DNA from: Cylindrotheca closterium | Taxonomy: Eukaryota > Bacillariophyta > Bacillariophyceae > Bacillariales > Bacillariaceae | Assembly (NCBI GenBank): GCA_933822405.4 | Contig: CAKOGP040001969.1 | Coordinates: 185,452 to 249,451 of the forward strand | Length of the DNA: 64,000 nt | Direction: 5' to 3' | In this document: positions 40,455 through 61,486 of the stretch, in pieces | How the letters are laid out: the number at the start of each line of letters is the position of its first letter | Numbering within the stretch: the stretch's first letter is position 1 | Notes under the pieces: generated by a model | Database searches by the model: none | What the model saw: only the letters and a program-made list of their open reading frames with translations | Told to the model about the DNA's origin: nothing | Position numbers and translations under genes: made by a program

Positions 40455-42215
40455 TCATCGCAATCGTCGCATATTACGAAATTGTTTGGACACCTTCTCA
40501 TGGGCCGCTTCATCGGATGCCACCTCCCATCTTCCATCATGATTAGCAGAGGGCTTTAAAAAACGACCCCCCCTCTTTTGAATATGTTTGATCAATTGCG
40601 ATACTGTATTCTTTTTCTTGCCGCGATCGGTGCGGCTGTATTCGTCGGATAGCCCCGCAACTATCTCTCGTAGTCGTTGGTTCCCTGGATTATCGGACCG
40701 TTGCCCAAACAAGACATCGTTTGGGCCAATATGTTCTAAAATTATCGGAGGCCTTGATAATGTTGGTGTATTTGAAAGACTGATGCACGTTCGAGAGCGT
40801 CGACGACGCAAATTGCGAAAGAGCTGCGTGACCTTGGCCCGTTGTTCATCTTGCGATAGTTCCACCCATGTGATCCTCCCTTCATCCTGTGACGACAATG
40901 AATCTGCTTGCGAAACAGATTGAGGGTCTGGCTTTAGAAATCTACCTCCATGCCTGTGGACTTCATCGATGATTGCAGATACAATGGTCCGTCGATTGGA
41001 AATACTTCCATTCGCGTACGCTGTGGCGTAAATGAGCGCCAACGAAAGCAGCCGTTCGTTTCCTAAAGTTTTGACTCTCTGACCCAAGGACAAGACATCA
41101 TTTTCATTGCCGCTGTTCGGGCCAGATGCGGTGTCATGGCTGGGTAGGTTATGTTGGGGCGTTGCAGGTGAACCAGAAGAAGGATTTGGGAATGATACAT
41201 GTTGCCGTTGCTCTTTCTCTCGAAGGATTCGTCTCTGAAACCAAGCATTATGATGGTTCAAATCCATCTCACTTTCGAGTCCCTTCAGAGGAAGAGCTCC
41301 TCTGGTTATGCCATAGCTTGCGAGTAAATATTGACATTCTGTGTGGGATCCCAAGTGTACACGCGATTTGACGCGTTCACGATGCGGCAGTATTGAAATG
41401 CACGTCCTGGTTACCATGCATTCTATTGGATTGCTATAACATATGTGTAATCCGTCAATCCTTATGGGGAGACCTTTCTGGAACAAGTTAAGTGCTTCGA
41501 GGAACCCCGCCCCTTTCAAATGATCTTTATACTGTTCCACCATATAAGATACGATGACAGTTCCTTTGCTGATGTCTACCATTGTTTCAACACTGTTTGC
41601 TGACATGTAAAATCTGGCTCGCAACTCTGTGCGGACAGCTGTCTTGGATCGAACGCCGGGGAACTCCAAATGGATCATTCGTCCTGATCGATCACGAAAT
41701 GGGGAGTATTGAAAATAGCCTTCCAACAAACAGGATAGGTCATCTTGGTCCAAATCTTGTACAGTGATGTCCCGAACCAAGCTTTCTGCACCAAAGAGGC
41801 CTTGTTTGTATCTAAAGAAGTTCATCAGTTTCTCAGCCGAAGCTTTTGGTTCAAAATGACTCGCTCGTAAGAAAGCCAACTGAAGTTCCCGATTGGAAAC
41901 ATAAGATGGGTCTTGCCTTTCCGCTGCTTCGTACGCAGTTCCTTCCTTCATGAGATTAAGATGTGTCTCTAACCCAAGAAGCAGGTCGTTGATCGTATTT
42001 TCATTCAGGTCAACTTCATTAGCAACTCCATGAAGCAATTCTTGCTCACGCTGAATCTGATCGAAAGAGAGATTCTTCATGCCTTCCATCAGCATGTCTT
42101 CATAATTGGAAACCCCGGGGAGTCTTATTCTTTTGCGGTTGCTTCCGCTTGGGGATGAGTTGTATCCGCAAAAACATGATGATGATTTTCTTGAGATTGC
42201 AACTGGTGTGCTCAT
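40455..42215 (-). CDS. CRAL/TRIO-like protein with two DUF6824-type domains, paralog 2, 586 aa
   Basis: Intronless, with ATG at 42215 (MSTPVAISRKSS). It aligns with the gene at 37698-39497 almost end to end: the N-terminal SCFCGYN against SCLCGIN, DPSYVSNRELQLAFLRASHF identical, SRVHLGSHTECQYLLASYGI identical, and both DUF6824-type modules (NENDVLSLGQRVKTLGNERL near residue 370; GPNDVLFGQRSDNPGNQRLR near residue 497). Differences cluster in the middle of the lipid-binding-like part (ALNLFQKGLPIRIDGLHICY) and in the linkers, and it has a three-residue insertion near residue 75 (ENTINDLL). A tandem duplicate, both copies intact and hence probably both used. Function unknown. Confidence 0.82.
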   Translation of the reverse strand: MSTPVAISRKSSSCFCGYNSSPSGSNRKRIRLPGVSNYEDMLMEGMKNLSFDQIQREQELLHGVANEVDLNENTINDLLLGLETHLNLMKEGTAYEAAERQDPSYVSNRELQLAFLRASHFEPKASAEKLMNFFRYKQGLFGAESLVRDITVQDLDQDDLSCLLEGYFQYSPFRDRSGRMIHLEFPGVRSKTAVRTELRARFYMSANSVETMVDISKGTVIVSYMVEQYKDHLKGAGFLEALNLFQKGLPIRIDGLHICYSNPIECMVTRTCISILPHRERVKSRVHLGSHTECQYLLASYGITRGALPLKGLESEMDLNHHNAWFQRRILREKEQRQHVSFPNPSSGSPATPQHNLPSHDTASGPNSGNENDVLSLGQRVKTLGNERLLSLALIYATAYANGSISNRRTIVSAIIDEVHRHGGRFLKPDPQSVSQADSLSSQDEGRITWVELSQDEQRAKVTQLFRNLRRRRSRTCISLSNTPTLSRPPIILEHIGPNDVLFGQRSDNPGNQRLREIVAGLSDEYSRTDRGKKKNTVSQLIKHIQKRGGRFLKPSANHDGRWEVASDEAAHEKVSKQFRNMRRLR

Positions 42216-44128: not shown

Positions 44129-45570
44129 TTAGGCCTCCTCCTTGTCCAAAGGAGTGATTTCAGGAGCCTCGGGTCCCATGATGGTCGACATGATCTTTCC
44201 ACTGACCAAGTAAGGGTCACAGTTGGAAGAAGGTCTACGGTCCTCAAAGTATCCCTTTCCTTCGTCCCAGGTGTCACGTCCGATTCGGACCGAGGCTCCA
44301 CGGTTGGCAACACCAAAAGTGAAATCGTTAATGGAGGCAGTCTCGAATTTTCCGGTCAATCGAAGTTCGTTTCCTTCTCCGTAAATGGCAATGTGTTCGG
44401 CGTGCTTCTCGCCCAACTTGTAGATGGCCTTCTTGATTACCTCAAGCCCACCTTCTTCTCTCATTGATTTGGTGGAAACGTTGGTGTGCATACCGGCACC
44501 ATTCCAGTCTCCCTCGACGATTGGCTTGGGGTGAAGCGTGCAGTAGACTTGGAAGTCTTCACAGACTCGTTGCAGGATGTATCGGGACATCATAAGTTGG
44601 TCACCAGCATCAATTCCGACGCATGGTCCGACTTGGTATTCTTGTTGTCCAGGCATGACCTCTCCGTTGGTCCCAGAGATGGTGATTCCGGCGTAAAGGG
44701 CAGCCTTGTACATGGCGTCAACGATGGCTCGTCCAAAAGAGTTCTCTGGACCGACCGAGCAGTAGTAGGGACCTTGGGCACGGCTGGGCATGCCACCTTC
44801 GGGCCAACCAAGGGGTGTGCGCTCATCCAAGTTGAAGAGGGTGAATTCTTGTTCCATTCCGAACCAGACTTCTTCGTCGTCCATGCCTTCAAATGCCTTG
44901 GCGGCTGAGGATTAGAAAGAAAAAAATCAAAGAGTGGAAGGAAATGAATGGGTGAGCAAAGCGTATTGATTGGAGCAAAATGATTGAGTTTCCAAGACGG
45001 ATGCAGATGACGAGCGGAATACTAATGCAAAGCAGTGTCTTGACGACCAATCGACGTCTAGTCCTTGTCATCATTATGTTGTTGTTGTGACTTACCAAAA
45101 GCACGGTTGTTGGTTTCCAAAGGTTCTCCAGCGGGAGTGTAGGTATCGCACATGACAAGGATATTGTCGATTCCGTCAGAGCGAGGGCGGAAGGGGTCCT
45201 TGAAGATACGGCATGGACGGAGGATGACCTCGGAGTCGTCACCTGGAGCTTGGTCGGTGGAAGATCCATCAAAGTTCCACTTTGGCAAGCTTTCGACAGA
45301 CTTTCCCTTGGCAGCAGGAAGAGTACGAGTCTTGGAACGCGTATTTCCAACGGCATCGGTCCACACGTACTCGGCAAGGATGCTGTCCTCAGGGAAAGGA
45401 AGAGAGTTGTATTTGGCAATGACGGCAGGATCCAAAGAGGACTGTCCGGTGGTCTTGGAAAGGACACCAGCGTTCAAGGAAGTAGACAGCTTGGGTGCCA
45501 TGGCAGGGGCAAAGGCCAAAGATTGGGCGGCAAAGCCGAGAGCAAAAACAAGGGAGGAGGTAAACTTCAT
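44129..45570 (-). CDS. GSII: Glutamine synthetase type II, plastid-targeted, spliced, 416 aa
   Basis: Exons 45570-45096 and 44904-44129 with a 191-bp intron (GTAAGT ... CTCAG); the join reads [20 protein letters not shown] at 45570 opens [20 protein letters not shown] followed by APAMAP: a signal peptide ending in the A-F-A-P type cleavage motif that diatoms use to send proteins through the ER into complex plastids. The enzyme body has [17 protein letters not shown] (the Asp-loop latch), the metal-binding [34 protein letters not shown] and [10 protein letters not shown] with the active-site Arg. It makes glutamine from glutamate, ammonium and ATP, assimilating nitrate-derived and photorespiratory ammonium in the chloroplast. 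A large transposon lies 152 bp upstream of the ATG and may have displaced promoter elements. Confidence 0.96.
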
Positions 45571-45721
45571 GATGAGGAGTGTGTACCGGTCGGTAGTATT
45601 CAAAATTATGTGACGACAAATGCCGACGACGGAATCAATCGAACGGATGGCAGAAAATTGATGGATCTTCCAAATTCCGGCAGAGGAAATACAGGAAGCG
45701 GTAAAAGAAGGAAAAAACAAA
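45571..45721. promoter_or_regulatory. Remaining promoter of the glutamine synthetase gene
   Basis: 151 bp between the GSII start codon and the proposed left end of the transposon. It holds any core promoter and 5' UTR. No clear TATA box is seen. Confidence 0.4.
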
Positions 45722-45974
45722 AGGCAGGTATCGTATAATCTTGGTCAACAAATTTGCTTGCGTCTACCAGTTTCTACATACGGTACGTGACGGGAGCAGG
45801 TCCCATATCCAGGTTACTTAGATTTCAAAAAAGGCGAATCAAAAATATTGTTCGTCACGGAGAAACTCACCAATGCTACAGGCAAAAAAATTTCACACAC
45901 ATCAAAACCCAAGTCGCAGCTCAAATGCGCTATAACTTTGGTGACAACGAGAAGTAAGAGAGAGGCCTTGAACC

Positions 45975-48900
45975 ATGGCACGAGGACGGCCTTCAGGAAG
46001 CAAGAACAAATCAGGTCATTCGGCCGGAGGAGATAGAAGATCAAGGAAGTACAAGAAACGATTGGAAGAAGAAAAAGGGGAACAACAACGACGCACCGAT
46101 AATTTTTTCAAACAGAGAAAGAAAGCAGTGGATCCTCCCAAATGGACAGATCATCCAGTATGCGAAAAAAACTTTGAAGAATCGCAAAGAATGCTTGCAG
46201 AAGTGCTTGATCACCCGTCAATGCCCAAAGGGAAAAATGTGCCTACACTTGGTATCATTGACTCTACATCCGACAATTGGAATGTCACCTATGACACTTC
46301 GCCTACTACAGACAATGAAGCCAAATACTACAGAAGGTCGATTATGCCTCCCAAAGGCACGCCATTGCAAGCATTTCTTGATCATGCGAAGGGTCAGATT
46401 GAAAACAATGGCCTCTGGAAGTGCCGCCAATACTACTATCGGACGCTTGAGTCACCATTGACATGTGGCCTTGGGTCGTCGCCAGCTCCAGACAAGTTCT
46501 ATTTGCCAGATATGGTTCGGATTTGGAAACCCAAGGAACAGTTCCACAGCATTCAGTTTGATTACAAGTGCCCCCACTGCAAATCTTGTTCCATAGAACA
46601 CAACGCACAGACTTGGCGGCCAGCATTTGAGCACAATGAGATCAGATGGGTCTATTGCCATCGCTTGCTCTGCAAAGATTGTAATGCTATGTTTAGTTCA
46701 ACTGATCCTTCTTTCCTTGGAATGCTCCCCACAAGCATTGCAGAAAGCTTTGAGTTTGTCTTCCCGCCACAAGGACCTGGGGTGCATCGAGTCATGCTTC
46801 GTCGGTTGTCACTGCAAATAGACAATCATGTCCTTTTTGGAGCATGGGCCCGTGAGGTCAATGATCTCTTGTGGGAAAAGTACTTTCAAAAGTGCAATCA
46901 GTACTATGAAGTCTTAAATGATTGGCTTGCAAAGTGGCCGTCACCTTCCTGCTATGACAGCACGGTGCCTTTGCATGCAAGGGATGGAAAGGGACAATAT
47001 GATGGCCGACCGATTGTCCCCTACTCAGCATTTGGTGCAGCTGGGCATCATAATGGAATCATGATGACAGAAGGCCTGGCAAAGACACTGTTTCGGCTTG
47101 TAGAAGGCGGCAAGAGATTTCAATATAATCAGAATTCTTTTGCCGCATGGCACGATGGCGGCTTGCGAGCTGATGACACCTTCAAGCTTCCGAAGAAGGT
47201 GTATGTGACAACATCGGGAGGGAACCGGGTGAAGCCTTATGCTTCTGTACTGACTTTGCTATCACAGTGCGGAAAGATTGTTGCTGCTGTCTGGAAGACA
47301 AGCATGTCCCACGCTGCAAATAGGCTTATTCTGCCGGGACTTAAGATTGCAAGGGACCATGTTGGCGCGCCACCTTTACGTCTACTCCAAACAGACAATT
47401 CTATAGGGGAACAAGCACCTTACTATGAAGTATTTCCAGAACTGGAGCAGGGCACAGTGGCTCGTGCTTCACTGCCAATGATTGAAATACCGCCTGATGA
47501 CATTGTTTCTTTTGATGTTGGCAGTGTCTTCAATGCTTACATCTTGACGCTAATAGACATCTTCATTCAGCATGAGGATCAAGAAATCTACTATGGTTTG
47601 GATACAGAGTTTGAGAGAGACAGCAAACTTACAGTATTGTCGCTGGCATTCCCTCAGTCATTGAGAGGATCAGAACTAGGAACAACAATCCCTATTGCCA
47701 TTGTCATTCACCTACACAAGATTGGCAAGGAGCAGTTCCCTGCTGACTTAAAGCGCCTCTTGGAGCTTCCAAGTATGATTCCAACCGGACGCTTGATTGG
47801 AGGTGATTGTAAGAAGCTAGAGGAACAGTATGGTATTAAGTTCAACAGAATGATTGAGCTAGGTAACTTGTGTCGATTGGACAATGGTGAGCTTTCAAGC
47901 TTTTCCCTTTGCAACTTGATGAAAGTGTACCTCCAGTGCATGTACCCGATGAACAAGTCAGCTGCGCAGTTGTCTAGCTATGCAAAACCAACACTGACAC
48001 CTACAGACAAACAATACTGCGCACTTGATGCAGTGGTCTCACTATGGGTTTTTCACCGGACGGTAGAATCATTAGCAAATGGCATTGGTAATCAACATCC
48101 AACTTTGCAGGTTGGGAAACGGTGTACGGTGACACATAATGCAAAAGACATTGCTTTTGGGCATCTGATCTTTGTTGGTGCCGGAGGCGAACAGATGCGG
48201 TGGGGTGGTATGACATTGGGCAGAAGGGACTGCCTTGTTGCTATTGAAAGTCTTATCGACGAAGACTTTGAACCAAAACGAAGGAACTCGACTTGGCCAG
48301 CAACTGCAGAGACAATGAGAGAGCTTCACAACAATGTTCCCAATTTAGGACTGGCAGTGGCTGCAACGCAAGTCAGGATCCATCTAGATGGCAGTGAATG
48401 CCAACCATCGAGCACACCGGAGATGCTAAGTGAGGCCACTATTCAATCCTTCCAAGTTGACAAGAGCTATCTTGATGTGCTTCTTTGGAAGGCAACTGAG
48501 GCAGTACCAATGGAAGACGGGGAAGATATTGATCTGCTGGTTGAGGGTGAAGAAACTGTGAGCAGCAGTGGGAAGACCAACAAGGGTGAGGCTGAGACTG
48601 GTGCATTGACAAACTCGCTGCGTGATCTTTTTCACCAGCTTCATTGCCTACCATTATCAAAAAAATCTCCGGCTATTGCACATGTTCTCCAGCTGGTTCT
48701 TGTTGCAACTTGGATCAGTGACGAAGAGGATTATGCAAATGTTGTTGAGGTCTTGCAAAACAAAGGCGAAGAGGATGTCGCTGTCCACGAGTTCCACAAT
48801 CGTGGCTACTGGCGGGAACGTGTTCGAAGAAACACACCATTGCCCCAGGATCATGCAAATAATATTCGAGTGGTGCAACATGAAATTTGGAGCAATTGTG

Positions 48901-50963
48901 GATTTGTCAGCATTAGAACCAAGGAGATAGCACAATGGTTTGATAAGTTTGCTGAAAATGCTGAGAATGGATTTTACTACATACCTCCAGATATGAGAAT
49001 GTACAGGATTGATAGGGTGGATTGTGATGGATTGAAGGTGTACACCACAGACTTTGGAACCAATCTCAACGAATCACTGCATCAGAAATACGCGGACTTG
49101 GTGGGACCATTTGCAGTGGGAGCCGAAACTGCAGATGTCCTGCTAGTCAACCGATCATTCCGTTTCAATATTGCTGTTGGAATATCAAAATACGGTGAGC
49201 CAGACTTTCATACTGAGCGACATGACATTGTTGATAAGACGCAGCACTGGATGATGCACATCTTTGCAACTTATGCTTGGCCAACACACAAGAACTTACT
49301 GGATTTCAGCCCACCAAAGAATGCCACTCTTGTAGGCCTTCGCCCACTTCCGCTTGATGAAAACCATGTGAGATATTCCAAGTTGCCAAATGCAGGTCTA
49401 ACGCCAGATCACAGATACTTGTCACAGAAACTGGGGGTCGAGATTGCACCAGTGCCTCTATCAACCAAAGATGAGTTCCAATTGTATACTTTCCACATCA
49501 GGGGGGTTGTTGCGATGTCAAGGAATCCAAACCAAAACGACTGGGATAATCTTGCAAGAAAGTTTCTTGAGAAGGCAAATGGAAAGACCATCTTTCCAAA
49601 GACAGAAGATCAATTGAAAAAATATTTCATTCATTGGAAACAGAACCAGTCCAAACGCCTCTTTGGAAAGGTGGTCAACATTAAAAACTCAAAAGTTTTC
49701 AAGCAACTCCAAAGCCAAAAGGCGTCCTCCATTTCAGTGATACACAAAACAAAACTACCAACACAAGTTGAAGGCACATACTATTCCCACAAGCAGCCTT
49801 TGGCCAACAAGGTAAATGTAGTGCCCCCAGATGTGGCGTACAATCAAATCAACCATGTGCCATTTGAATCCAAGCTGCAAAAGAAATCAAAACAGAAAAA
49901 GGGGCCAACCACAATTGAAGACCTACAGAAGAAGTCATCGAGGGACCTCAAACGGGTTGCTCATCGATGTGTTTGGTTTCCCTATTGTCAAAAGCAAGTA
50001 TGGGCCTGTGGGGGCAACAAATTTTCCAATTGCAAGTTCATCAATGAAGAACACAAAATCAACAAAAAGTCGAGTGCTGAGATCGACAAAAGAAGGAAGT
50101 TTGTCAGACTGGAGAAGGAGAAAGAAACTGCAACAAGGGCTCGAAAAAGGCAGAGGGTAATAAAGGGCATTGTGGCAAAAGCAAGGATACAAAAAAGCAA
50201 ATCAGGTTCTCACCTCAGAACGAAAGTGATTGAAGGAACCAAAACGTCCGAAGCCATTACAATTCCAGAAGAAGAGTATCTGAGCCAAAAATGTATTGTG
50301 TTAGGCAGTGGGAAAATCATTGCAGACACTTTGCTTCAGGCTCTTGCGACACCTACCGTTATGATTGATGATGAAGTTGTCAATGCATACCTATCCCTTC
50401 TTGTGGACTTGGCGCATTCCTCAAGAAGAAGAGCAGGCGTTGGGACAACTCAATCGGGGATCTGGCAAATGCTTACAAATCGTCACTACACATGGAGGGA
50501 AATCTATCCAAATCTGAATCGACCACACCGAGTGAATCTCATCCCAGCATTCTTTGGAAGCCGAGCGGCTGGGCATTGGGGAGCCCTAATCGTGGACAAT
50601 GAATGCTCACCTGGGCAAAGAAAGATTATCTATGTTGATAGTATATCATCTGTAAGAAAAGATAATTTCAACACAGTAAAACGATTGTTGAGACAGTGGG
50701 AGAGTGATACGAACAATTTTGTGCAAATTGACTCACCCAGCCAGGCCTCGGGCTCCAATGATTGTGCAGTGTACACTCTTGCTGCATGTGCTCACTACGT
50801 ATTCCGCACTGGCGATTTCCTGCCAACTTCATTTCAATTCCAAAATGGTATTAATGCAACCCGGTATGGTCGAGAGTGGAGACGCCATGTTCACAAGTCA
50901 ATCATGAACCAGAGGATTGATATGAGCGACCCCGTTCTCGGTTGGATGGTTCTTCGACCATAG
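45975..50963 (+). CDS. Transposase-like protein: zinc ribbon, DDE-type core split by a DEDDy exonuclease, C-terminal Ulp1 protease, 1662 aa
   Basis: ATG at 45975. The N-terminus RGRPSGSKNK is an AT-hook-like DNA contact, followed by a basic stretch. A zinc ribbon starts at Cys199-x2-Cys202 (YKCPHCKSC) and ends near LLCKDC. The RNase H-fold core supplies Asp400/401 (ADDTFKLPKKVYV), Asp474 (LLQTDN) and, much later, Glu1033 (NLNESLHQKY). Between the last two lies a 3'-5' exonuclease domain: Asp543/Glu545 (GLDTEFE), Asp611 (IGGDCKKL), Tyr681/Asp685 (YCALDA), a complete DEDDy site. A Cys cluster (RCVWFPYC, ACGGNKFSNC) follows near residue 1330. The end is a Ulp1/C48 cysteine protease: His1534 (GHWGAL), Asp1555 (YVDS), Gln1590 and Cys1597 (SNDCAVYTL). 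All catalytic residues are kept, so the protein may be active. The whole ORF has no intron. Confidence 0.8.
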   Translation: MARGRPSGSKNKSGHSAGGDRRSRKYKKRLEEEKGEQQRRTDNFFKQRKKAVDPPKWTDHPVCEKNFEESQRMLAEVLDHPSMPKGKNVPTLGIIDSTSDNWNVTYDTSPTTDNEAKYYRRSIMPPKGTPLQAFLDHAKGQIENNGLWKCRQYYYRTLESPLTCGLGSSPAPDKFYLPDMVRIWKPKEQFHSIQFDYKCPHCKSCSIEHNAQTWRPAFEHNEIRWVYCHRLLCKDCNAMFSSTDPSFLGMLPTSIAESFEFVFPPQGPGVHRVMLRRLSLQIDNHVLFGAWAREVNDLLWEKYFQKCNQYYEVLNDWLAKWPSPSCYDSTVPLHARDGKGQYDGRPIVPYSAFGAAGHHNGIMMTEGLAKTLFRLVEGGKRFQYNQNSFAAWHDGGLRADDTFKLPKKVYVTTSGGNRVKPYASVLTLLSQCGKIVAAVWKTSMSHAANRLILPGLKIARDHVGAPPLRLLQTDNSIGEQAPYYEVFPELEQGTVARASLPMIEIPPDDIVSFDVGSVFNAYILTLIDIFIQHEDQEIYYGLDTEFERDSKLTVLSLAFPQSLRGSELGTTIPIAIVIHLHKIGKEQFPADLKRLLELPSMIPTGRLIGGDCKKLEEQYGIKFNRMIELGNLCRLDNGELSSFSLCNLMKVYLQCMYPMNKSAAQLSSYAKPTLTPTDKQYCALDAVVSLWVFHRTVESLANGIGNQHPTLQVGKRCTVTHNAKDIAFGHLIFVGAGGEQMRWGGMTLGRRDCLVAIESLIDEDFEPKRRNSTWPATAETMRELHNNVPNLGLAVAATQVRIHLDGSECQPSSTPEMLSEATIQSFQVDKSYLDVLLWKATEAVPMEDGEDIDLLVEGEETVSSSGKTNKGEAETGALTNSLRDLFHQLHCLPLSKKSPAIAHVLQLVLVATWISDEEDYANVVEVLQNKGEEDVAVHEFHNRGYWRERVRRNTPLPQDHANNIRVVQHEIWSNCGFVSIRTKEIAQWFDKFAENAENGFYYIPPDMRMYRIDRVDCDGLKVYTTDFGTNLNESLHQKYADLVGPFAVGAETADVLLVNRSFRFNIAVGISKYGEPDFHTERHDIVDKTQHWMMHIFATYAWPTHKNLLDFSPPKNATLVGLRPLPLDENHVRYSKLPNAGLTPDHRYLSQKLGVEIAPVPLSTKDEFQLYTFHIRGVVAMSRNPNQNDWDNLARKFLEKANGKTIFPKTEDQLKKYFIHWKQNQSKRLFGKVVNIKNSKVFKQLQSQKASSISVIHKTKLPTQVEGTYYSHKQPLANKVNVVPPDVAYNQINHVPFESKLQKKSKQKKGPTTIEDLQKKSSRDLKRVAHRCVWFPYCQKQVWACGGNKFSNCKFINEEHKINKKSSAEIDKRRKFVRLEKEKETATRARKRQRVIKGIVAKARIQKSKSGSHLRTKVIEGTKTSEAITIPEEEYLSQKCIVLGSGKIIADTLLQALATPTVMIDDEVVNAYLSLLVDLAHSSRRRAGVGTTQSGIWQMLTNRHYTWREIYPNLNRPHRVNLIPAFFGSRAAGHWGALIVDNECSPGQRKIIYVDSISSVRKDNFNTVKRLLRQWESDTNNFVQIDSPSQASGSNDCAVYTLAACAHYVFRTGDFLPTSFQFQNGINATRYGREWRRHVHKSIMNQRIDMSDPVLGWMVLRP

Positions 50964-51077
50964 AATAGGAGATAAATTAGAAATGTTCTAAATCTCATTT
51001 GACAGGATTACTAGTCTTCCAATCCAACGTTTCACGCAAAGTACTTACAGCAGAATGACAAGTAGGTAGTAACAACG

Positions 51078-51530
51078 ATACCTTCTTGTTTTGTCTTGCT
51101 GCGGTATTGAATGCAAATGCTTCGACCGACCATCGAAAAGGCAAAGCACCTTGAATCTCAATTAAGCAGTGCAGTAGCAAGATAAATCCCACTCCGCTTC
51201 TGCTTTCAAGTGGATTGTTAGATTTATCAATACCTTCTTGTTTTGTCTTCCTGCGGTATTGAATGCAAACGCTTCAACCGACCATCGAAAAGGCAAAGCA
51301 CCTTGAATCTCAATTAAGCAGTGTAGTAGCAAGATAAATCCCACTCCGCTTCTGCTTTCAAGTGGATTGTTGGATTTATCGATACCTTCTTGTCTTGTCT
51401 TCCTGCGGTGTTGAATGCAAACGCTTCGACCGACCATCGAAAAGGCAAAGCACCTCGAATCTCAATTAAGCAGTGCAGTAGCAAGATAAATCCCACCCCG
51501 CTTCTGCTTTCAAGTGGATTGTTGGATCGC
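51078..51530. repeat. Three tandem copies of a 151-152 bp repeat
   Basis: Units beginning accttcttgt near 51081, 51232 and 51384, each running through ttgaatgcaaa.gcttc, gaccgaccatcgaaaaggc and cttctgctttcaagtggatt. They are more than 90% alike by eye. They lie between the transposase ORF and the right end of its element, where subterminal transposase-binding arrays are often found. Confidence 0.9.
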
Positions 51531-51940
51531 TGCATTCTGATCAAACGGCGCCTCCTGTACACAAATCGAGAGCGCCGATGCCGATTTGTTACTTGTTGGA
51601 GGCTGGCGATCGTAGTGTTGTCAATTGAACCAATGATGATGATGATGCTTGCAACCAGCTCCCGTCAAAAACGGTACGAAAACGGACGAAAAATGCCTCT
51701 GCTACAGTCATATCCGGGTCGCTTAGCGGCTCTATTTTTTGAAATCAAATATTATTCGTCTGTTCTTCGATCTTTGGTGATTCCAAGCGGAAATGTGCCG
51801 TCATCGTAGGGGTAGTATGAAAAATACGGCGATTTTCAAATATTCATCACCTATTTTATGGAATACCTGCCGAAACAAACACGTCAGTAATCCATTGCAG
51901 CGTTTATATACGTCTACTTTTCAACCAAAGCACAGCTGAT

Positions 51941-52011
51941 TCTCCTGTAGTGAAGTGGTTATCACTCTTGACTTTGAATCAAGCATCCCAAGTTCGAATC
52001 TTGGCAGGAGA
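51941..52011 (+). tRNA. trnQ-UUG: tRNA-Gln (anticodon TTG)
   Basis: The 71 bases fold into a full cloverleaf: acceptor tctcctg/caggaga, D stem gtga/tcac, anticodon stem cttga/tcaag with loop ctttgaa (anticodon TTG, reading CAA), T stem ccaag/cttgg with loop ttcgaat. Box A (tagtgaagtgg) and box B (gttcgaatc) are good RNA polymerase III promoters. There is no intron and no encoded CCA, as in eukaryotic genes. A T-rich terminator (52016 onward) follows, and the TATA-like tttatatacg lies about 38 bp upstream. Confidence 0.95.
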
Positions 52012-54428
52012 ATTCCTTTTTTCCTTTTTTTTACACATTTTGCGTTTGACGGCCCAACACCGGTACATATGGATAAGGACAGCTTTGACTTCACTTGTAT
52101 ATATATATGGAGACCAGGAGACCAGTTACTAATACTCTAACCCCTCCTCTTGTTGTTCTCATCGGCAGTCTGCTTGTCAATATTCCTGCAGCGAGTTTTT
52201 CAGTGTGGCTTTTCCTAAAAATACTTTAGGAACCAAAACAACAGATTCAGTTAAGTTTGGAAACACGCACGAGGGTGTAACGCGCGGCACTTATTATTTG
52301 CGGAAATCCGTCGGTTCATCAAACTTCCCGAACAAAATTGAAAATTCGATTGATTCTGCCGGCAATGTATTTACAATACTGATGTAATTTCACGTAGTTG
52401 AAGTTGTTCTTTCAAAATGAAACCCTATGTATTTTTCAATGAGTCATGCTATTGAATAATGTCGATGAAGGGGAGGAAGCATTATTTGCAATATGCGAGG
52501 GAGATCAGAAGGATGACTGGATGGATCTTTGAATTTGACATGACTTTGATGATGACGGCCGATGACAGCATCTCGACAAAACGACGACGAACGACAGGAC
52601 GGCAGCCACGATAGTCAAGAATAGGAAGGAAACCATGATGCTTGATTGATTCACTCAAGAGGATGGGTTTCAAGCACTTTCAAGCACCTCCAAGCTATCA
52701 TATCGGGTACTGAGATCCAGCAATAGCCTGTGTGTGATATTTTCAAGTTACTTTCGGCCGGAATAGACATGCTGGAATTGTCGTATTGGATCAGAACGAT
52801 GAGGCAAAAGAACAGTCTTGTATTTGTTGTCATTCCTGTCAGTAATGGTTTTCAATCAGCACAACCAATGGCATGTCCTCATCGATTGGATTTAAATATC
52901 AGAGTCCAGCAGAGGCAATGAAATCATCTTCGTCTCTATAGTGTTGTCCGCCCCATCTTTTGATTGGATTATCAGAAGACTACTATAGAATCAAGTCAGA
53001 GACAAAGGAATCAGCTCAGAAAGGAATAGTAGAAACAATAAGAGCAGTCAGTTTCTATTCGTGTTTTCTATTATAGGGCTATGCTCCCTGCTTCTGTTTC
53101 TCCATGTTTGATGACTATTGCTTGGGTTCTTTTGCATGACATTCATTCATGATGTCCTAGCTGCGGCCATATCTATCTCCTTGTCTTAGGCTGGCATCGT
53201 CTCTGACGACGATGCAATCAATGAGAAAAGGATTTGAATGAATGTTGTACCACCTACTTGCTGGAATAATGCATTGCAGGAGCCTTTTTCGTGTGGCGAA
53301 TCATGTTTATTGTGGCTGAATGTACCAATCACCGTGATTGACAGGACCTGAATGCTGGCATTGCTCTTCTGTTGGCAATCATGCAGTATGCAATATTTTT
53401 CATCGTTTCACGTCCCATAGAGGTGGAGTGATGACAACCAAAATATCTTTTGATTTGTGCTTCGGAAGTCAAAAAAGATAGATACCACCTTATCACTGCC
53501 ATGAAGGTATGTGTACGGCCGATGGACGTAGTGGAATTCCGCTGTTCCTTTTAGCTTCATAGCTCAAACCGCTGATATCAGTTCACCCGAAGGTGATAAT
53601 AGAATATGAAAACTTCATGCTTCTCGAAGAAAGTGCAACACTGCTAAATTGACAATCGCCAGGACATGCGGCTTAATTATTCGAATGGATGTCTTGCGAT
53701 ATTATTTCTCGTACATGGATTTGGACCTGTGCCGAAGAAAACCGCAGCGAAATGGGCTCGTAATTGTTCTTTTGAAATGAATGAATCGCTGGTATACGTG
53801 CACTGGTACTGGTACTCGTTCTTCATACATCGCTTTCCACCAAGTGAGATACAATGCAATGATACAGTTTATTGCAGTATTATTGCTGCACTCGCTTTTT
53901 TTTCTTCATGAAGGATGAGACATCCGTTAATGTCAACTTAGTATCATCACTGTATTGGCATGTCAATGCTGTCTTTCGTTCCAACTTTTTGGTATTCCTT
54001 TTTCAATTTTCTTTCTCATTGCACTATTCACCATATTGAAGTTGGCCGTTGCTACGACTGTTTACAAATCTGATGTTGTTGTATTTTGTACCGTACCGGT
54101 AGGACATATTTGGCTATCTAAGATAGCCTACTGCCGTCCTCCGTGTGTGTGTTCGTAGTATTTTGTCTTGGTGTGTGTAGCATGCAGGCTCTTACATGAT
54201 GCTGGTGCAATTTTTAGTGAATTTTCAGCCAATGAGAGTTAGTCAAATCACTAAAAATCAACCCATTTTTAGTGGTCTAAGCCAATCACAGCGGGCCATT
54301 CACTAAAAATAGAATATCTCCACTAAGTTAGTACTCATCAAAAACACATCTTAACGCGCCAAAAGACTTCACAACAGGTCCCCAAAAAGCATTGACTTTG
54401 ATGAGGCAACAGCAGCGACACGTATGCT
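52012..54428. other. Gene-free stretch before the second transposase gene
   Basis: About 2.4 kb with no supported ORF. It has a TA run (52098-52108) and scattered at-rich DNA. The last 220 bp (54211-54310) hold four inverted copies of a tttttagtg word and may be part of the following element. Confidence 0.5.
54211..54310. repeat. Fourfold inverted motif tttttagtg / cactaaaaa
   Basis: Forward copies at 54211-54219 and 54265-54274, reverse copies at 54249-54257 and 54301-54310; the first pair gives 10-bp arms (tttttagtga and tcactaaaaa) around 27 bp. Words like gccaatgag and gccaatcac lie between them. Placed about 120-220 bp before the transposase ATG, they may be regulatory or transposase-binding sites. 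Confidence 0.75.
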
Positions 54429-57400
54429 ATGAAACGAAAATCAACGTCATCACAGAGGCCAACCCTCGATGGCAAACATAAGGAAAAGATCTCCCAGGGA
54501 CAGAAACGAGCACATGCTGAGAGATTAGAAGCTTCAAGGCAAACAAATCAAGCAACCTTCATGAACTCATTGTATGCCAATGTTCGACGGCAGCAAGCTG
54601 AAGCTAATGCAGCTGAACATTCTGAGCAGAATCCGGATGGTGAAGGAGAAGATGAAAGGAATGCTAGCATACCAATCATTGACCAGCCTCCTGAGCTAAT
54701 TGAACGACATGAGGGTATGCCTATAGTTCCAAATCTTGATATCCTTGACGATGAAGAGTTTGTGGACGAAGATCTCACTGAGGAAGAACCTGAGCTGACG
54801 ATCATGCACAGATATCTCCAAGCAATCCAAAAACGGCTGCAGTATGAGACTTCCCCCAAGTTTCCAGCATTGGAAAACAAATGGCTCAACGAATTTCTGG
54901 GGGAAAATGACTGGTGGATCCATCGGCATCAGTACCGCTCTATCTGTAGATTACTGCAAATCCAGTACAAAGAGGAAGAAAACGAGGCTGCATACTTTAG
55001 AAAGGTTTATGTTTGGTTGCCTGATGTTAGATGGGGTCCATCTTGCATGCCGACTTGTGCTAAATGTGGCTCCAATACCACTGTCAGGAATAATGGCTTC
55101 CGCGACAACCATTTTGGGCGCAGAGTAGTCGCACTTGATCATGACTACTACTGTATTTCAAGGCGGTATCGGTGTAATAATTGTGAGCAGAAGGCAAGAG
55201 AGGCAAAGATAGCTATTCAACAAAGTGCTGCCGCGAACAATATTGCGATCCAATTCACCGAAGAGACGGACAGTGGACAGCAGTATTCATTCATGGCATG
55301 GAACAGAAAAACACTTGAGCTGTATCCACATGGTATCGGGCAAGAATTCCCCGCATTTTTGACCCATAGGTCTGGAGTGGATCGCCTCCTTCTGGACATG
55401 ATGCGCCCACTTTTTGACAAAGGCTTACGACCTGGGGCATTTGCAGACACCATTCTGGAACTGCATGCAAAGCGGTACCATCAGGAATGTCTAAAACATG
55501 AACTTGAACTAGCAAAGACAGCCAATCGCTATCACAGACCTATGCTTTCAGCATTTGGAGACACATCAAAGTACAACGGATTGGTCCCAACTGGTTCCTA
55601 TCTCATGTATGTGTACAAGTTGTTTCACAGCACCATCAAGGACTTCCTAGACACTGAAGTAAAGAAAAGGGGCGCCAAAATGATTTGTGTTGATGCCAGT
55701 TACAAGGAGCCAAAGCATCTTTGTCAGTATCATGGCCAGAATCTGTTTAAGGGCCTGATCACTGTCACAAACGAAATTGGGGAAATACGATTGCAATTCC
55801 ACGTGGTCACAGATGACCACGAACAATTTCGACCATCGTTGATTGCGTTTTTGGAAACAGTGAAAGCATACGGCCAAAATCCGTTGGAGCTTGTCTTCAC
55901 AGACAATGTCCAGGCCGATAGGCAATTTTACTTGGACACGTTTCCTTCTTTGGCTGAAGCCCAAGCTCGTCTTGATAGAATTGTGACCGGCGGCAACGAA
56001 GAAAGCGGTGATGAACAAGACAACACTTGCACAGTCGACGATGACCAATTTTTTGTAATTTCAGAAAGAGGTGAGATGAACAGATTTGTCACAGCACTTG
56101 ACGAAATCATGCAAGACAAATCCGCAGAGGATCAAGTGGTCGGGCTTGATGCAGAATGGAATGTCAATATAGCCAGCTATGGAATGCCAAAGAAAATTGG
56201 AAAACTTGCACTACTAATTCTGGCCTACAAAGACAGTGACGGGCGTCACAAGGCTGCTCTATTGAGACTGCATAAGTTCCCTTCACTTCCGCATCGCTTG
56301 CTTGCTTTCTTGGTCGGGGGAACAAAGTTTGTCGGGAATTATGTAGGTGGTGACATTAAACGGCTCGGACGTGACTATCACTGTGAGGATGAGATGAAGA
56401 AAGTTTCAGTAGTCAACAACGGATTGGTCCCAACTGGTTCCTATCTCATGTATGTGTACAAGTTGTTTCACAGCACCATCAAGGACTTCCTAGACACTGA
56501 AGTAAAGAAAAGGGGCGCCAAAATGATTTGTGTTGATGCCAGTTACAAGGAGCCAAAGCATCTTTGTCAGTATCATGGCCAGAATCTGTTTAAGGGCCTG
56601 ATCACTGTCACAAACGAAATTGGGGAAATACGATTGCAATTCCACGTGGTCACAGATGACCACGAACAATTTCGACCATCGTTGATTGCGTTTTTGGAAA
56701 CAGTGAAAGCATACGGCCAAAATCCGTTGGAGCTTGTCTTCACAGACAATGTCCAGGCCGATAGGCAATTTTACTTGGACACGTTTCCTTCTTTGGCTGA
56801 AGCCCAAGCTCGTCTTGATAGAATTGTGACCGGCGGCAACGAAGAAAGCGGTGATGAACAAGACAACACTTGCACAGTCGACGATGACCAATTTTTTGTA
56901 ATTTCAGAAAGAGGTGAGATGAACAGATTTGTCACAGCACTTGACGAAATCATGCAAGACAAATCCGCAGAGGATCAAGTGGTCGGGCTTGATGCAGAAT
57001 GGAATGTCAATATAGCCAGCTATGGAATGCCAAAGAAAATTGGAAAACTTGCACTACTAATTCTGGCCTACAAAGACAGTGACGGGCGTCACAAGGCTGC
57101 TCTATTGAGACTGCATAAGTTCCCTTCACTTCCGCATCGCTTGCTTGCTTTCTTGGTCGGGGGAACAAAGTTTGTCGGGAATTATGTAGGTGGTGACATT
57201 AAACGGCTCGGACGTGACTATCACTGTGAGGATGAGATGAAGAAAGTTTCAGTAGTCAACAACGGATTGGTCCCAACTGGTTCCTATCTCATGTATGTGT
57301 ACAAGTTGTTTCACAGCACCATCAAGGACTTCCTAGACACTGAAGTAAAGAAAAGGGGCGCCAAAATGATTTGTGTTGATGCCAGTTACAAGGAGCCAAA

Positions 57401-60400
57401 GCATCTTTGTCAGTATCATGGCCAGAATCTGTTTAAGGGCCTGATCACTGTCACAAACGAAATTGGGGAAATACGATTGCAATTCCACGTGGTCACAGAT
57501 GACCACGAACAATTTCGACCATCGTTGATTGCGTTTTTGGAAACAGTGAAAGCATACGGCCAAAATCCGTTGGAGCTTGTCTTCACAGACAATGTCCAGG
57601 CCGATAGGCAATTTTACTTGGACACGTTTCCTTCTTTGGCTGAAGCCCAAGCTCGTCTTGATAGAATTGTGACCGGCGGCAACGAAGAAAGCGGTGATGA
57701 ACAAGACAACACTTGCACAGTCGACGATGACCAATTTTTTGTAATTTCAGAAAGAGGTGAGATGAACAGATTTGTCACAGCACTTGACGAAATCATGCAA
57801 GACAAATCCGCAGAGGATCAAGTGGTCGGGCTTGATGCAGAATGGAATGTCAATATAGCCAGCTATGGAATGCCAAAGAAAATTGGAAAACTTGCACTAC
57901 TAATTCTGGCCTACAAAGACAGTGACGGGCGTCACAAGGCTGCTCTATTGAGACTGCATAAGTTCCCTTCACTTCCGCATCGCTTGCTTGCTTTCTTGGT
58001 CGGGGGAACAAAGTTTGTCGGGAATTATGTAGGTGGTGACATTAAACGGCTCGGACGTGACTATCACTGTGAGGATGAGATGAAGAAAGTTTCAGTAGTC
58101 AACTTGGGACGTTATGCAAGAGATAGGGATGTTGTACAGAGTGGTACAGTCAGATTGGATGCTCTTGTTCAGATTTGTTTGGGCGAAACCATGCAAAAAC
58201 AAGCCAGTGTTCGTGTCTCAAGTAAATGGGAACAGCCCTCATTATCGCAGGATCAAAAGAAGTACGCAGCACTGGATGGGATCAAGTCACTGGAGGTGTA
58301 CCTTTACCTTCGGCAGAAACCAGACCTATCAGTTCGGCTATCAGTTGAGGAAGCAAGAGCTGGCCTTTGTATTGACGTTGCTCCACTTCGTGGAGGAGCC
58401 CTCAGCATGGTTGCGACTAGGTGCGCAACTGGCACATTGACAGAACAAACTTATGATGAATGGGAAGTGCCAAGTGATATGAGACTTGACACTGGACAGA
58501 TCAATAAACGACGATACCGCGTTGTGAATGTATGTTCTGTGGTCGCACCACATTATATTGTACCATATGTGAAGAAGAAAGAAAGTGGAGGGCCTGTTTG
58601 TCTTGACGACTTTGGGGCTCCACCATTCTTTGTCATTCTACCTTTGACCATGTTGAAGCAGCACATAGAATCAGATACAATTCGCCCTTTCCCAAATATG
58701 AACCCAAATGTGAATAACATGACCGGAGCAACCGGAGGAGCAATTCCACCGGCACCAATAGTGCCGCCAGCACCGCCAGCACCTCCGCGGATTATGCAAA
58801 ACCAATTGTTCGATCAGAACGAGACTTTCACGGAGGAGGATACTGGACAAATAGGAACAATGGACCAATTGGACGGTGATGCTGAAACTGCAGCTGTCAA
58901 TCTATCCAACAAAGATGTGGAAATGCTACACAAGGTGTGCCTCCTTGGAGACAAAGCAGCTTTGGGAAATGACTTGTTGGCGTGTGCACATCTTGACAAC
59001 GCTCCAGACAAAATCACTGACTGTTTTTCGGCTGTTGTTGGTGATGTCTTTCATTTAATGGATCGAATGAAAATTCCCACTCACCATGAGTTCAAAAAGG
59101 CTTTCAAGGTCGCATTACGAGACAGTGTTTTGCAATGGAGCCCTCCTGAGCTGGAAGAGGTGAAGACCGCAGTGAAGGCAAAAGATGGAAAGACTGACGA
59201 TGAAATTGATGCTGACATGTATTTCAATGCAGCCTTCTGGAAGGCATGCGTCCCGAGAAGGGTCCTACCTCCTCGGTTGCTATATTGGAGGGTCCGAGCT
59301 GTATTTGTTTCGTTTGGAGGTATGATTGACTCGACAAGCAAGAAACCGCTTTTCAACAAGACAGCATGGAAGAAAGCCAACAATATTTTGAAAGAAATCT
59401 TGCGCGGGTATTATTCTGATCCTCCAGGATATTCGTTTTATTCTACAAAGTTCAACAAGAGAGGAGAGCCAATGGTCAATGCCTACGGTTTTGATATTCT
59501 TTCTTGCAGACGTGGGACCAATGACGTGGAATCGACTCACAAGTTACTTTTGTCAATATTTGGCACTTGGCATATTGGGCTTCAGATGTCGGATTGTTTG
59601 CTCAGAGAGAGAAGGCATCGTCATAATCAAAGATGTTCAGAGAAACGCCGGTTGGGCCATCCTTGCATAGGGCATTATGACACTTGGCTGATTGACGCTC
59701 TACAGATTCTGGTACAGGTCAATCATGGGATCTTGCTCCATCCAAATTGGATCAATTCAAGCGACTTCAAGAACACGCAAGAAAAGTTTGGGACGATTAC
59801 ACTGCATGATGCTGAGTTGGCGGAAGCACTTGCAAAAGTTCAGATTGACGAAAGTGTGCGGCTGACTCATGATATGCAGTATTTGTGTTCTGTGATGGGA
59901 ACAAAGCTTCCGTTGTTACCTGTTCACACTATTGACGAGCGCAGGCACTTCTCAAATCTTGTTGTACAGCTTCAAAACGGCCAGGATAAATCTTGCAAGA
60001 AGATGGCACTGGAATGGACAAAAGCGGTGAACGGTGTTACCATTTTTCCAAAGCTGCCGGTACATCTTCGAAATTATCGCGACAAGTTTGAGCGGAATGC
60101 AAAAGTACGTCAAGCTTTCAAAGATGCTCAAGAGTCAAGGGAAATTCTATCTACCTTGAACAAGGCTCTTTGCCCAGAAATCGAAGCAGATGAAGGGATT
60201 GATGCAGAAGACACGCCACAGCAGTTGGACAATTATACTAGGCAATGGCCTGCAATATGTGCACCACCACAACTGCTGCTTCCATTGGCTCCATCTGCTG
60301 TCGAGCCGGGAAATATTCATGTGGGTGGCGTTCTCATCAACAAGGCGCCGGATATTGCACCATTAGATCGTATTAAGAAGAGAGGAAGAGGTCAGAGAGG

Positions 60401-60536
60401 GCCGGATAATCCTAGAAAGGGTGCCAGGCCCAAGCGCAGATGCATGTTGTGCAAGGGAAAAGGTGAGACTGATGATGCTGCCCGAAATTGTCCAGGTAGC
60501 AGACATCGAGAAGACTGCAAACACCTACAAAGATAA
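54429..60536 (+). CDS. Transposase-like protein with DDE-type core and DEDDy exonuclease, bearing an in-frame triplication, 2035 aa
   Basis: ATG at 54429. After a charged N-terminus comes a zinc ribbon (Cys210-x2-Cys213, then RYRCNNCEQK). The core gives Asp422 (ICVDASYKEPKHL), Asp492 (VFTDN), the exonuclease start Asp574/Glu576 (GLDAEWN) and Asp642 (GGDIKRL). Residues 383-663 are then repeated exactly at 664-944 and 945-1225. After the third copy the exonuclease is completed by Tyr1279/Asp1283 (YAALDG), and the transposase core by Glu1701 (NDVESTHKLLLSIFG). The end is a basic Cys cluster (RRCMLCKGKG ... NCPGS), with no Ulp1 domain. Without the repeats the protein would be 1473 aa. It is homologous to the 45975-50963 protein in plan, but far diverged in sequence. 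No intron. With three copies of half a catalytic core its activity is doubtful. Confidence 0.78.
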   Translation: MKRKSTSSQRPTLDGKHKEKISQGQKRAHAERLEASRQTNQATFMNSLYANVRRQQAEANAAEHSEQNPDGEGEDERNASIPIIDQPPELIERHEGMPIVPNLDILDDEEFVDEDLTEEEPELTIMHRYLQAIQKRLQYETSPKFPALENKWLNEFLGENDWWIHRHQYRSICRLLQIQYKEEENEAAYFRKVYVWLPDVRWGPSCMPTCAKCGSNTTVRNNGFRDNHFGRRVVALDHDYYCISRRYRCNNCEQKAREAKIAIQQSAAANNIAIQFTEETDSGQQYSFMAWNRKTLELYPHGIGQEFPAFLTHRSGVDRLLLDMMRPLFDKGLRPGAFADTILELHAKRYHQECLKHELELAKTANRYHRPMLSAFGDTSKYNGLVPTGSYLMYVYKLFHSTIKDFLDTEVKKRGAKMICVDASYKEPKHLCQYHGQNLFKGLITVTNEIGEIRLQFHVVTDDHEQFRPSLIAFLETVKAYGQNPLELVFTDNVQADRQFYLDTFPSLAEAQARLDRIVTGGNEESGDEQDNTCTVDDDQFFVISERGEMNRFVTALDEIMQDKSAEDQVVGLDAEWNVNIASYGMPKKIGKLALLILAYKDSDGRHKAALLRLHKFPSLPHRLLAFLVGGTKFVGNYVGGDIKRLGRDYHCEDEMKKVSVVNNGLVPTGSYLMYVYKLFHSTIKDFLDTEVKKRGAKMICVDASYKEPKHLCQYHGQNLFKGLITVTNEIGEIRLQFHVVTDDHEQFRPSLIAFLETVKAYGQNPLELVFTDNVQADRQFYLDTFPSLAEAQARLDRIVTGGNEESGDEQDNTCTVDDDQFFVISERGEMNRFVTALDEIMQDKSAEDQVVGLDAEWNVNIASYGMPKKIGKLALLILAYKDSDGRHKAALLRLHKFPSLPHRLLAFLVGGTKFVGNYVGGDIKRLGRDYHCEDEMKKVSVVNNGLVPTGSYLMYVYKLFHSTIKDFLDTEVKKRGAKMICVDASYKEPKHLCQYHGQNLFKGLITVTNEIGEIRLQFHVVTDDHEQFRPSLIAFLETVKAYGQNPLELVFTDNVQADRQFYLDTFPSLAEAQARLDRIVTGGNEESGDEQDNTCTVDDDQFFVISERGEMNRFVTALDEIMQDKSAEDQVVGLDAEWNVNIASYGMPKKIGKLALLILAYKDSDGRHKAALLRLHKFPSLPHRLLAFLVGGTKFVGNYVGGDIKRLGRDYHCEDEMKKVSVVNLGRYARDRDVVQSGTVRLDALVQICLGETMQKQASVRVSSKWEQPSLSQDQKKYAALDGIKSLEVYLYLRQKPDLSVRLSVEEARAGLCIDVAPLRGGALSMVATRCATGTLTEQTYDEWEVPSDMRLDTGQINKRRYRVVNVCSVVAPHYIVPYVKKKESGGPVCLDDFGAPPFFVILPLTMLKQHIESDTIRPFPNMNPNVNNMTGATGGAIPPAPIVPPAPPAPPRIMQNQLFDQNETFTEEDTGQIGTMDQLDGDAETAAVNLSNKDVEMLHKVCLLGDKAALGNDLLACAHLDNAPDKITDCFSAVVGDVFHLMDRMKIPTHHEFKKAFKVALRDSVLQWSPPELEEVKTAVKAKDGKTDDEIDADMYFNAAFWKACVPRRVLPPRLLYWRVRAVFVSFGGMIDSTSKKPLFNKTAWKKANNILKEILRGYYSDPPGYSFYSTKFNKRGEPMVNAYGFDILSCRRGTNDVESTHKLLLSIFGTWHIGLQMSDCLLRERRHRHNQRCSEKRRLGHPCIGHYDTWLIDALQILVQVNHGILLHPNWINSSDFKNTQEKFGTITLHDAELAEALAKVQIDESVRLTHDMQYLCSVMGTKLPLLPVHTIDERRHFSNLVVQLQNGQDKSCKKMALEWTKAVNGVTIFPKLPVHLRNYRDKFERNAKVRQAFKDAQESREILSTLNKALCPEIEADEGIDAEDTPQQLDNYTRQWPAICAPPQLLLPLAPSAVEPGNIHVGGVLINKAPDIAPLDRIKKRGRGQRGPDNPRKGARPKRRCMLCKGKGETDDAARNCPGSRHREDCKHLQR
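55575..58103 (+). repeat. Perfect tandem triplication of 843 bp
   Basis: Units 55575-56417, 56418-57260 and 57261-58103. I found no base difference between them where compared, and antisense shadow ORFs recur exactly every 843 bp. The unit length is divisible by three, so the frame is kept. Junctions read gtcaac|aacgg, with about 2 bp of shared sequence, pointing to end joining rather than long-homology recombination for the first event. Confidence 0.95.
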
Positions 60537-61285
60537 AAAGAGTAGCCTGTATTGACTTACCATTTATTCTGCTTAGCCTATCAGTTGCGCTTGTTTTAGT
60601 GGTGTTGTTTCAGTTGTGTTGATGGGCGACTGCTCCAACCCAATTTTATTGAAAAAAGTCCACGTCTTTTTTTTAAAGAGTCCCTTTTCTCTAAGCATAA
60701 AAAATATCATAATAAAACTGTCGCCACGAACCACCGTTTTCAACTTTTACCGTGGAGTTGGTGTGGAATACATGCTGTCATTCAATTTTGTGTAAATGTA
60801 AATTTTACCTGGCTTTTTCATTATATTCAATTTTCTGGTGCGAAACGCGTAGTGTTCCAAAAATAAGTATATGGTGCAATTCAGTTTTCCAACAGGAAAA
60901 CCAAAAAAGAGAAAATCCAAAACGAGCCGGTTGATTCTACCAGTGAAAGACTGCAATGTTTCACAAAGCTGACGGAATTGTATAAACACTTACATACCGG
61001 CGATGATCATTCTCTTTCGAAAGGTTACAGCCATTAGTGGCGAACTCCTTTGCAATTTGAAACTGACAGATATCGATTTCCATATTTGTAGAGAATCGAT
61101 ACCAGGAAATTTATCCTGGCCGGGCCAGAATGACACAATGTGGCGTCTTACGACGCCATGAGAAGCATGCATTGTGTTGCAGGCTGGAGATGATAATCTC
61201 GACATTGCGGATCGTCTCTTTTTTTCCCTTTTCCTTTTCCTTCTTTTCCTTCTCTTTCCCCTTCTTTTTTCCCCGGGGGATCTAG
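60537..61285. other. Gene-free stretch downstream of the second transposase gene
   Basis: AT-rich flank with a ttttagtgg word at 60594 that mirrors the upstream motif, and a tttcctttt pyrimidine tract (61216-61272). No ORF with support. The right end of the element was not located. Confidence 0.45.
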
Positions 61286-61293
61286 TATAAATA
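61286..61293 (+). promoter_or_regulatory. TATA box-like element
   Basis: tataaata at 61286-61293, with a second tataaaag at 61309-61316, about 170-200 bp before the ATG of the Ser-rich ORF. A long pyrimidine tract precedes it. It is the best core-promoter match in this part of the window; use not proven. Confidence 0.5.
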
Positions 61294-61486
61294 GCTGCAC
61301 CAGCATAGTATAAAAGCCTGCATGCATGCACCTCAAAAAAAGGGCAGTCGTATTGGTCGTACATCAATTACTTTCGTACTATAATTTTATTTTGGCATAG
61401 TAAGTACCGGTACAGTTATGTTGAATTGCATGGCATCATAACCAACGACGAATTCTGATAGCTGAGCGTCCTACCTGCCGCTCATC

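Follow-up and report, generated by a model that had tools for sequence, protein, structure and literature searches.

A 64,000-nucleotide stretch of the genome of the diatom Cylindrotheca closterium, referred to below as the window, probably harbors two Dada-like DNA transposons, both autonomous and of the cut-and-paste type, in which an exonuclease nested inside the transposase would most likely trim 3' ends. The window belongs to contig C425 in a 47.6-Mb genome, and all coordinates follow its own numbering, position 1 being its first letter. Each of the two elements is complete. Element 1 occupies 45723..51871 on the + strand (6149 bp; 5'-GGCAGGTAT...ATACCTGCC-3') and was delimited by an alignment of copies and by non-autonomous copies. 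Element 2 occupies 54187..61318 on the + strand (7132 bp; 5'-GGCTCTTACAT...ATAAAAGCC-3') and was delimited by the copy found on C100 and, likewise, by non-autonomous copies.

Architecture of the Two Transposases

The open reading frame of element 1 (ORF1; 45975..50963, + strand, 1662 amino acids) comprises a zinc ribbon, a DDE transposase core with a nested exonuclease and an Ulp1 protease, as established from the list of open reading frames, Pfam, an alignment of relatives and a structure model. Its features, all on the + strand, begin with an N-terminal CX2C...CX2C zinc ribbon in the DUF6729 region (46569..46682; C199, C202, C233 and C236, from the alignment), followed by the first half of the DDE core (47157..47414), where the alignment and the model place D400 at 47172-47174 and D474 at 47394-47396. 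A WRN-like DEDDy 3'-5' exonuclease comes next (residues 541-694, 47595..48056; D543, E545, D611, Y681 and D685), recognized by Pfam, profile, alignment and model, and after it stand the DxxH motif (D884-H887, 48624..48635; alignment) and the catalytic Glu, E1033, in GTNLNESLH (49071..49073; alignment and, within a helix, model). The distance from D474 to E1033 is 559 residues. Judged from its sequence, the nested domain is a DEDDy exonuclease (PF01612): it has the D-E, D and Y...D residues together with profile and Pfam matches, the Pfam match in residues 541-694 (DNA_pol_A_exo1, E-value 9.6e-5, 22.7 bits) falling slightly below the cut-off of 23.6 bits.

The Ulp1 domain (Peptidase_C48; residues 1532-1610, 50568..50804, + strand) was located by Pfam on the C-terminal piece and by alignment. 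It went undetected in a Pfam search with the whole of ORF1, while the C-terminal 223 residues alone gave an E-value of 7.8e-6 and 26.3 bits, above the cut-off of 20.7. Two ORF1 relatives scored 19.7 and 19.0, slightly under this cut-off, and the His-Asp-Gln-Cys residues of Ulp1 are kept in all three aligned sequences (ORF1 and the two relatives). Proteases of the Ulp1 and OTU types occur in other transposons. The protein P0062 (2367 amino acids) carries an N-terminal OTU protease domain according to Pfam; on visual inspection it also shows a stretch resembling Ulp1, for which Pfam gave no match.

The frame of element 2 (ORF2; 54429..60536, + strand, 2035 amino acids; list of open reading frames and Pfam) has a DUF6729 zinc region, a DDE core with nested exonuclease and a C-terminal cysteine-rich motif. 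Repeat comparison revealed an 843-bp (281-codon) in-frame unit at 55573..58101 on the + strand, present three times without any difference (100% identical), so that both catalytic Asp residues are tripled, together with the first half of the exonuclease. The third exonuclease segment (57834..58319, + strand; Pfam and sequence reading) is the only complete one; downstream, sequence reading located the DxxH motif (DVFH, 59043..59054, + strand) and the catalytic Glu, E1701, in RGTNDVESTH (59529..59531, + strand). The C100 copy has a single unit, in an intact frame of 1473 amino acids. Recent tandem expansion may account for this triplication, as may a fault in the assembly.

A preliminary description of this DNA had delimited ORF1 and ORF2 and named D400, D474, D543/E545, D611, Y681, D685 and E1033, all of which were found where it had placed them. 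The link that it drew to DUF6729 was borne out: Pfam matched this domain in ORF2 (E-value 5.6e-10) and in P0002, a protein 46% identical to ORF1 (E-value 1.8e-8), while ORF1 itself, scanned whole, gave no match. The Pfam exonuclease match in ORF2 was weak (E-value 0.0057, 16.9 bits). A literature search, for which subscription journals lay mostly outside coverage, did not find the term "DUF6729".

Conservation Among Relatives

Conservation was evaluated over 78 proteins, namely ORF1 and 77 relatives, each count being taken among the proteins with a letter at the column. The protein search had yielded two relatives with ORF1 and 76 matches with ORF2, including ORF2 itself (P0003), which was excluded from the alignment because of its internal repeats. 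Organism-labelled sources of these relatives were the diatoms Discostella, Cyclotella, Thalassiosira, Skeletonema and Chaetoceros, and one fungus, Rhodosporidiobolus (P0076).

The active-site residues of both domains were found to be near-invariant. In the DDE core, D400 is present in 78/78 proteins, D474 in 76/77 and E1033 in 76/77; in the exonuclease, which stands at the same place in 76 of the 78 proteins (ORF1 included), D543, E545 and D611 are each kept in 76/76, and Y681 and D685 in 75/76. In the DxxH motif, D884 is kept in 74/77 (three proteins have Ser) and H887 in 77/77, as is H1036 (77/77), and the zinc cysteines are similarly retained (C199 72/72, C202 70/71, C233 71/71, C236 67/71). 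The earlier proposal that a DDE transposase holds a DEDDy exonuclease between its second Asp and its Glu is thus upheld over 78 proteins, and the frames indeed belong to mobile elements. Because of this conservation, a chance origin or free variation of the active-site Asp and Glu residues, for which an alignment of homologs had been suggested as a check, was ruled out.

On sequence grounds, ORF1 and ORF2 are two branches of one family. Identity to the aligned piece of ORF1 is 27% for P0078 and 16-21% for the ORF2-type proteins, and ORF1 clusters with P0001, P0002 and P0078 in both trees (support 1.0 for the DDE part, 0.86 for the exonuclease). Between proteins, exonuclease distances correlate with those of the DDE core (r 0.73, 72 proteins), a value reached by 0 of 500 permutations. 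Moreover, the exonuclease tree has 28 high-support splits, 23 of them also highly supported in the DDE tree and three in conflict with it. Correlated distances and common splits therefore fit one old insertion of the exonuclease, inherited together with the core.

In the fungal protein P0076 (Rhodosporidiobolus ruineniae), the transposase lies within a protein model of an aldo-keto reductase, which was matched in two stretches; it was probably inserted into the aldo-keto reductase gene.

Predicted Structure

AlphaFold2, supplied with ORF1 residues 150-1240 and an alignment of 37 sequences, returned a model with a mean predicted local distance difference test (pLDDT) of 82.0 and a predicted template modelling score of 0.67; pLDDT was under 50 for residues 805-831 and 842-876. 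In this model D400 lies within a strand, more strands and a long helix follow, and D474 comes straight after the next strand. The exonuclease is followed, in order, by a beta-rich piece, poorly predicted stretches and the DxxH motif; a mostly helical region then leads to E1033, close to the beginning of a helix. Such a predicted secondary structure is that expected of an RNase H core, and its order, exonuclease apart, agrees with that of the Mutator-type core in PMC3942029.

Within the exonuclease, the model places D543 and E545 on the same strand, D611 near the start of a helix, and Y681 and D685 in a long helix. A profile built from 56 relatives had as its best structural match, and closest solved relative, the WRN exonuclease (E-value 1.3e-39), followed by EXD2, mut-7, NanoRNase C and others; none of the matches in this search extended through the DDE part. 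In WRN the exonuclease belongs to a helicase protein, whereas here it is nested in a transposase.

Element Ends, Target Duplications and Recent Copying

The ends of both elements were defined by comparison of copies. Homology with C63 and C330 begins exactly at 45723, and homology with C264 reaches the right end of element 1. Close to this end, three tandem 152-bp repeats (51078..51533, unstranded; repeat comparison) are also matched by pieces of C264 and C39. Terminal inverted repeats are present and imperfect (18/26 in element 1, 20/26 in element 2), and short non-autonomous copies share the ends of element 1 and of element 2. Matches to the element-2 ends numbered 45 and 55, with target duplications scored at 14 places, and matches to the element-1 ends 16 and 36, with scoring at 8 places. 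Four loci were excluded from duplication scoring: L039, where the right end was not reached, L056 and L057, which lie in the C414 region of L034/L035, and L058.

Exact 8-bp duplications flank members of the element-2 family at nine of the 14 scored sites (C100, L031, L032, L036, L037, L038, L040, L041 and L035). The left duplication of element 2 in the window, agcatgca (54179..54186, unstranded), differs at one position from its right counterpart, tgcatgca (61319-61326; 7/8). In the element-1 family, for which duplications were assessed in 8 copies with both ends read, clear cases are C57 (8 bp) and a tandem pair on C351 (9 bp at its outer flanks). No common motif was seen by eye in the duplicated sequences (base counts of nine), and 11 rebuilt empty sites of element 2 had no mutual similarity. 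Small RNA genes gave no Rfam match at the gathering score in 18 loci, a test that a broken RNA gene could escape, and no transfer RNA (tRNA) was found in these 18 loci or in the 11 rebuilt empty sites.

Element 2 also moved recently. The copy of element 2 at C100:2968-8413 is 99.955-100% identical to that of the window and has unrelated flanks; near-identical copies at different sites therefore indicate recent movement. Among the matches listed in the protein search, full copies of element 2 were those of the window and C100 only, besides pieces. For element 1, a second complete ORF1-type frame was found at C223 (1690 amino acids, 48% identity), and the ratio of nonsynonymous to synonymous substitution rates (dN/dS) of the window ORF1 was about 0.17 against the C264 piece and about 0.21 against the C330 piece.

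Relationship to Dada and Kolobok

The preliminary description knew of no named superfamily with this plan. The Dada superfamily (Kojima and Jurka, 2013; PMC3706591) has in fact exonuclease-bearing members, in Laccaria bicolor and Ectocarpus siliculosus, and a wholly new protein plan was rejected, since these already exhibit the nested exonuclease. Like the elements described here, Dada has a DDE triad, a DxxH motif downstream of the second D and an N-terminal CCCC zinc motif, the last being spaced as C389/C394/C429/C432 in Dada-U6_DR and as CX2C-CX2C here. The first and second Asp are 68 residues apart in Dada-U6_DR, compared with a median of 70 in this family, the protein is large in both (1402 amino acids in Dada-U6_DR), and the fungal and brown-algal Dada have the DEDDy exonuclease in the same place, between the second D and DxxH (PMC3706591). 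A C-terminal CCHC zinc motif, another Dada character, may be present in part of the family: a loose pattern for it matched 48/78 proteins.

Several characters nevertheless differ from the published description (PMC3706591). Described Dada produce duplications of 6-7 bp, whereas 8 bp is found here; terminal inverted repeats are absent in Dada-U6 and Dada-U1 and present here; and described Dada sit inside small nuclear RNA or tRNA genes, whereas dispersed, unrelated sites are occupied here. Described Dada also have introns, except in Perkinsus, in contrast to the single long frames of the window, and the Ulp1 protease of ORF1 is a further difference. Since the duplication length, the lack of inverted repeats and the RNA-gene targets of Dada were not observed, the elements are filed as a Dada-like lineage, set apart from Dada by the published descriptions.

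The Dada literature mentions one later copy in a non-RNA site. In Table 1 of PMC3706591, the entries Dada-1_LB, Dada-2_LB and Dada-1_ES have no RNA-gene target in their names, and according to the same source every Dada whose termini could be clearly defined was inserted in an RNA gene; the termini of the Laccaria and Ectocarpus Dada were thus seemingly undefined. These Dada may belong to the lineage described here. The elements of the window suggest that the Dada diagnostics, namely a 6-7 bp duplication, RNA-gene targets and the absence of inverted repeats, fail for elements of the same protein plan. A bolder reading, which we consider rather unlikely, is that elements from diatoms and at least one fungus constitute a separate superfamily, inclusive of the Laccaria and Ectocarpus "Dada", in which the nested exonuclease serves transposition itself by trimming an imprecise cut to a fixed 3' end.

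The C/DxxH signature is common to the Mutator, hAT, P, Kolobok and Dada transposases (PMC3942029, PMC3706591, PMC9587614), and KolobokD is, like the family studied here, a DDE transposon of this group that encodes a DnaQ-type exonuclease (PMC9587614). That exonuclease is of the DEDDh type, as opposed to DEDDy here, and Kolobok duplicates the 4-bp TTAA, which was not encountered at the sites scored in this work.

Proposed Mechanism and Alternatives

As regards mechanism, we infer all biochemical activities and the order of the steps as follows. The zinc ribbon probably binds the element ends. The RNase H-fold DDE core, of the C/DxxH group, would cut both ends and join the 3'-OH groups to target strands 8 bp apart. 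Since the exonuclease branches off from the core behind the second Asp, it is probably near the active site, and most likely takes a few nucleotides off exposed 3' ends between cleavage and joining, these ends being donor flank or unprocessed transposon end. The Ulp1-type protease of ORF1 probably frees proteins at the insertion complex of SUMO or some similar modifier. A role in processing cleaved 3' ends has also been suggested for the Dada exonuclease (PMC3706591). We give an even chance to trimming of 3' ends being its main role here. Two nuclease sites in one chain, near-invariant over 78 divergent proteins, make end processing by a transposase exonuclease directly testable, and the elements, with their defined ends, intact frame and near-identical recent copy, could therefore serve in an assay.

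Several observations weigh against this proposal. Regarding the proteins, the meeting of D400, D474 and E1033 in one site is deduced from predicted secondary structure. Some relatives depart from the plan: P0060 lacks both the exonuclease and D474, P0020 has lost Y681 and has Lys in place of Glu at E1033, P0076 has lost D685, and P0078 carries Gly in place of D474. Distances in the exonuclease follow those of the DDE core less closely (r 0.73) than do those of the zinc region (r 0.90). Regarding the insertion sites, the duplication is incomplete at the window copy of element 2 and more so at L042 (5/8), L033 (2/8), L034 (3/8) and L044 (3/8); at L031 the flanking sequence is in itself a 142-bp tandem repeat; and element 1 in the window has no clean duplication (5/8). 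In the family of this element, C46 has poly-T and C209 6/8, and none was clear for C435, C58 and C557, as for the window. L034 and L035 both stand in one tandem group on C414. Lastly, dN/dS of the window ORF1 was about 0.67 against C63, and dS was not computable against C223.

Also among these observations is P0051, which lacks most of the exonuclease and retains the DDE and DxxH residues. It also speaks for an alternative of which we are doubtful, a little more so than of a separate superfamily: the exonuclease would act outside end processing, on other nucleic acid, for instance by breaking down host repair intermediates or the donor site once cut, and thereby favor re-copying of the element from the sister strand. 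Repair of the donor gap can raise transposon copy number, and the nearest sequence relative of the nested domain, the WRN exonuclease, is a repair enzyme, both of which count for such a role. Insertion after the second catalytic Asp and near-invariance at a mean protein distance of about 0.6 suggest, however, tight coupling to the core, with which a role at the donor site may still be compatible.

Membership of the true Mutator superfamily (Mutator-like elements, MULEs), with later gain of an exonuclease, would be an improbable origin, still less credible than a role at the donor site. It is favored by the order of motifs (D..K, TDN, C/DxxH, TNxxE) shared with MULEs, by a duplication of 8-9 bp and by the C/D(2)H signature as given in PMC3942029. 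Mutator/MULE and IS256 indeed resemble the present family in motif order, in this signature and in a similar duplication length, and ordinary MULEs reside in the same genome, the one read having the same motif order. The position of the signature differs, however: in Mutator it comes 11-19 residues after the second D (PMC3942029), whereas the exonuclease lies between them here. Seventeen MULE proteins gave no significant match to the family profile. Neither the D1-D2 segment (E-value 0.0062, probability 6%, out of register) nor the TNxxE segment (E-value 0.07, probability 0.8%, in register) was significant, and no Pfam MULE match was obtained in the family proteins scanned. MULE membership was consequently rejected on profile evidence, despite the agreeing motif order. 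The word "exonuclease" is absent from the main text of a MULE survey (PMC6446971).

As to the ordinary MULE transposases of this genome, 10 matches were recorded (C537, C17, C433 and others). The C537 frame has the same order of motifs, and its database twin is devoid of an exonuclease domain.

Finally, the nesting could be an accident of one frame or of the assembly, a degenerate transposase read through into an unrelated exonuclease gene, as the perfect threefold repeat of ORF2 in the window, a possible assembly fault or damaged copy, might suggest, but this has a negligible likelihood given the same placement of the exonuclease in 76/78 proteins including ORF1 and the single unit and intact frame of C100.

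Neighboring Genes

A glutamine synthetase gene (44129-45720, - strand) adjoins element 1, whose start lies some 150 bp upstream of the likely initiation codon; this gene gave Gln-synt_N and Gln-synt_C matches and has an N-terminus that resembles a signal peptide by eye. DUF6824 domains were found in three genes of the window (27059-27928, 37698-39497 and 40455-42215, - strand), two of which have two matched stretches.

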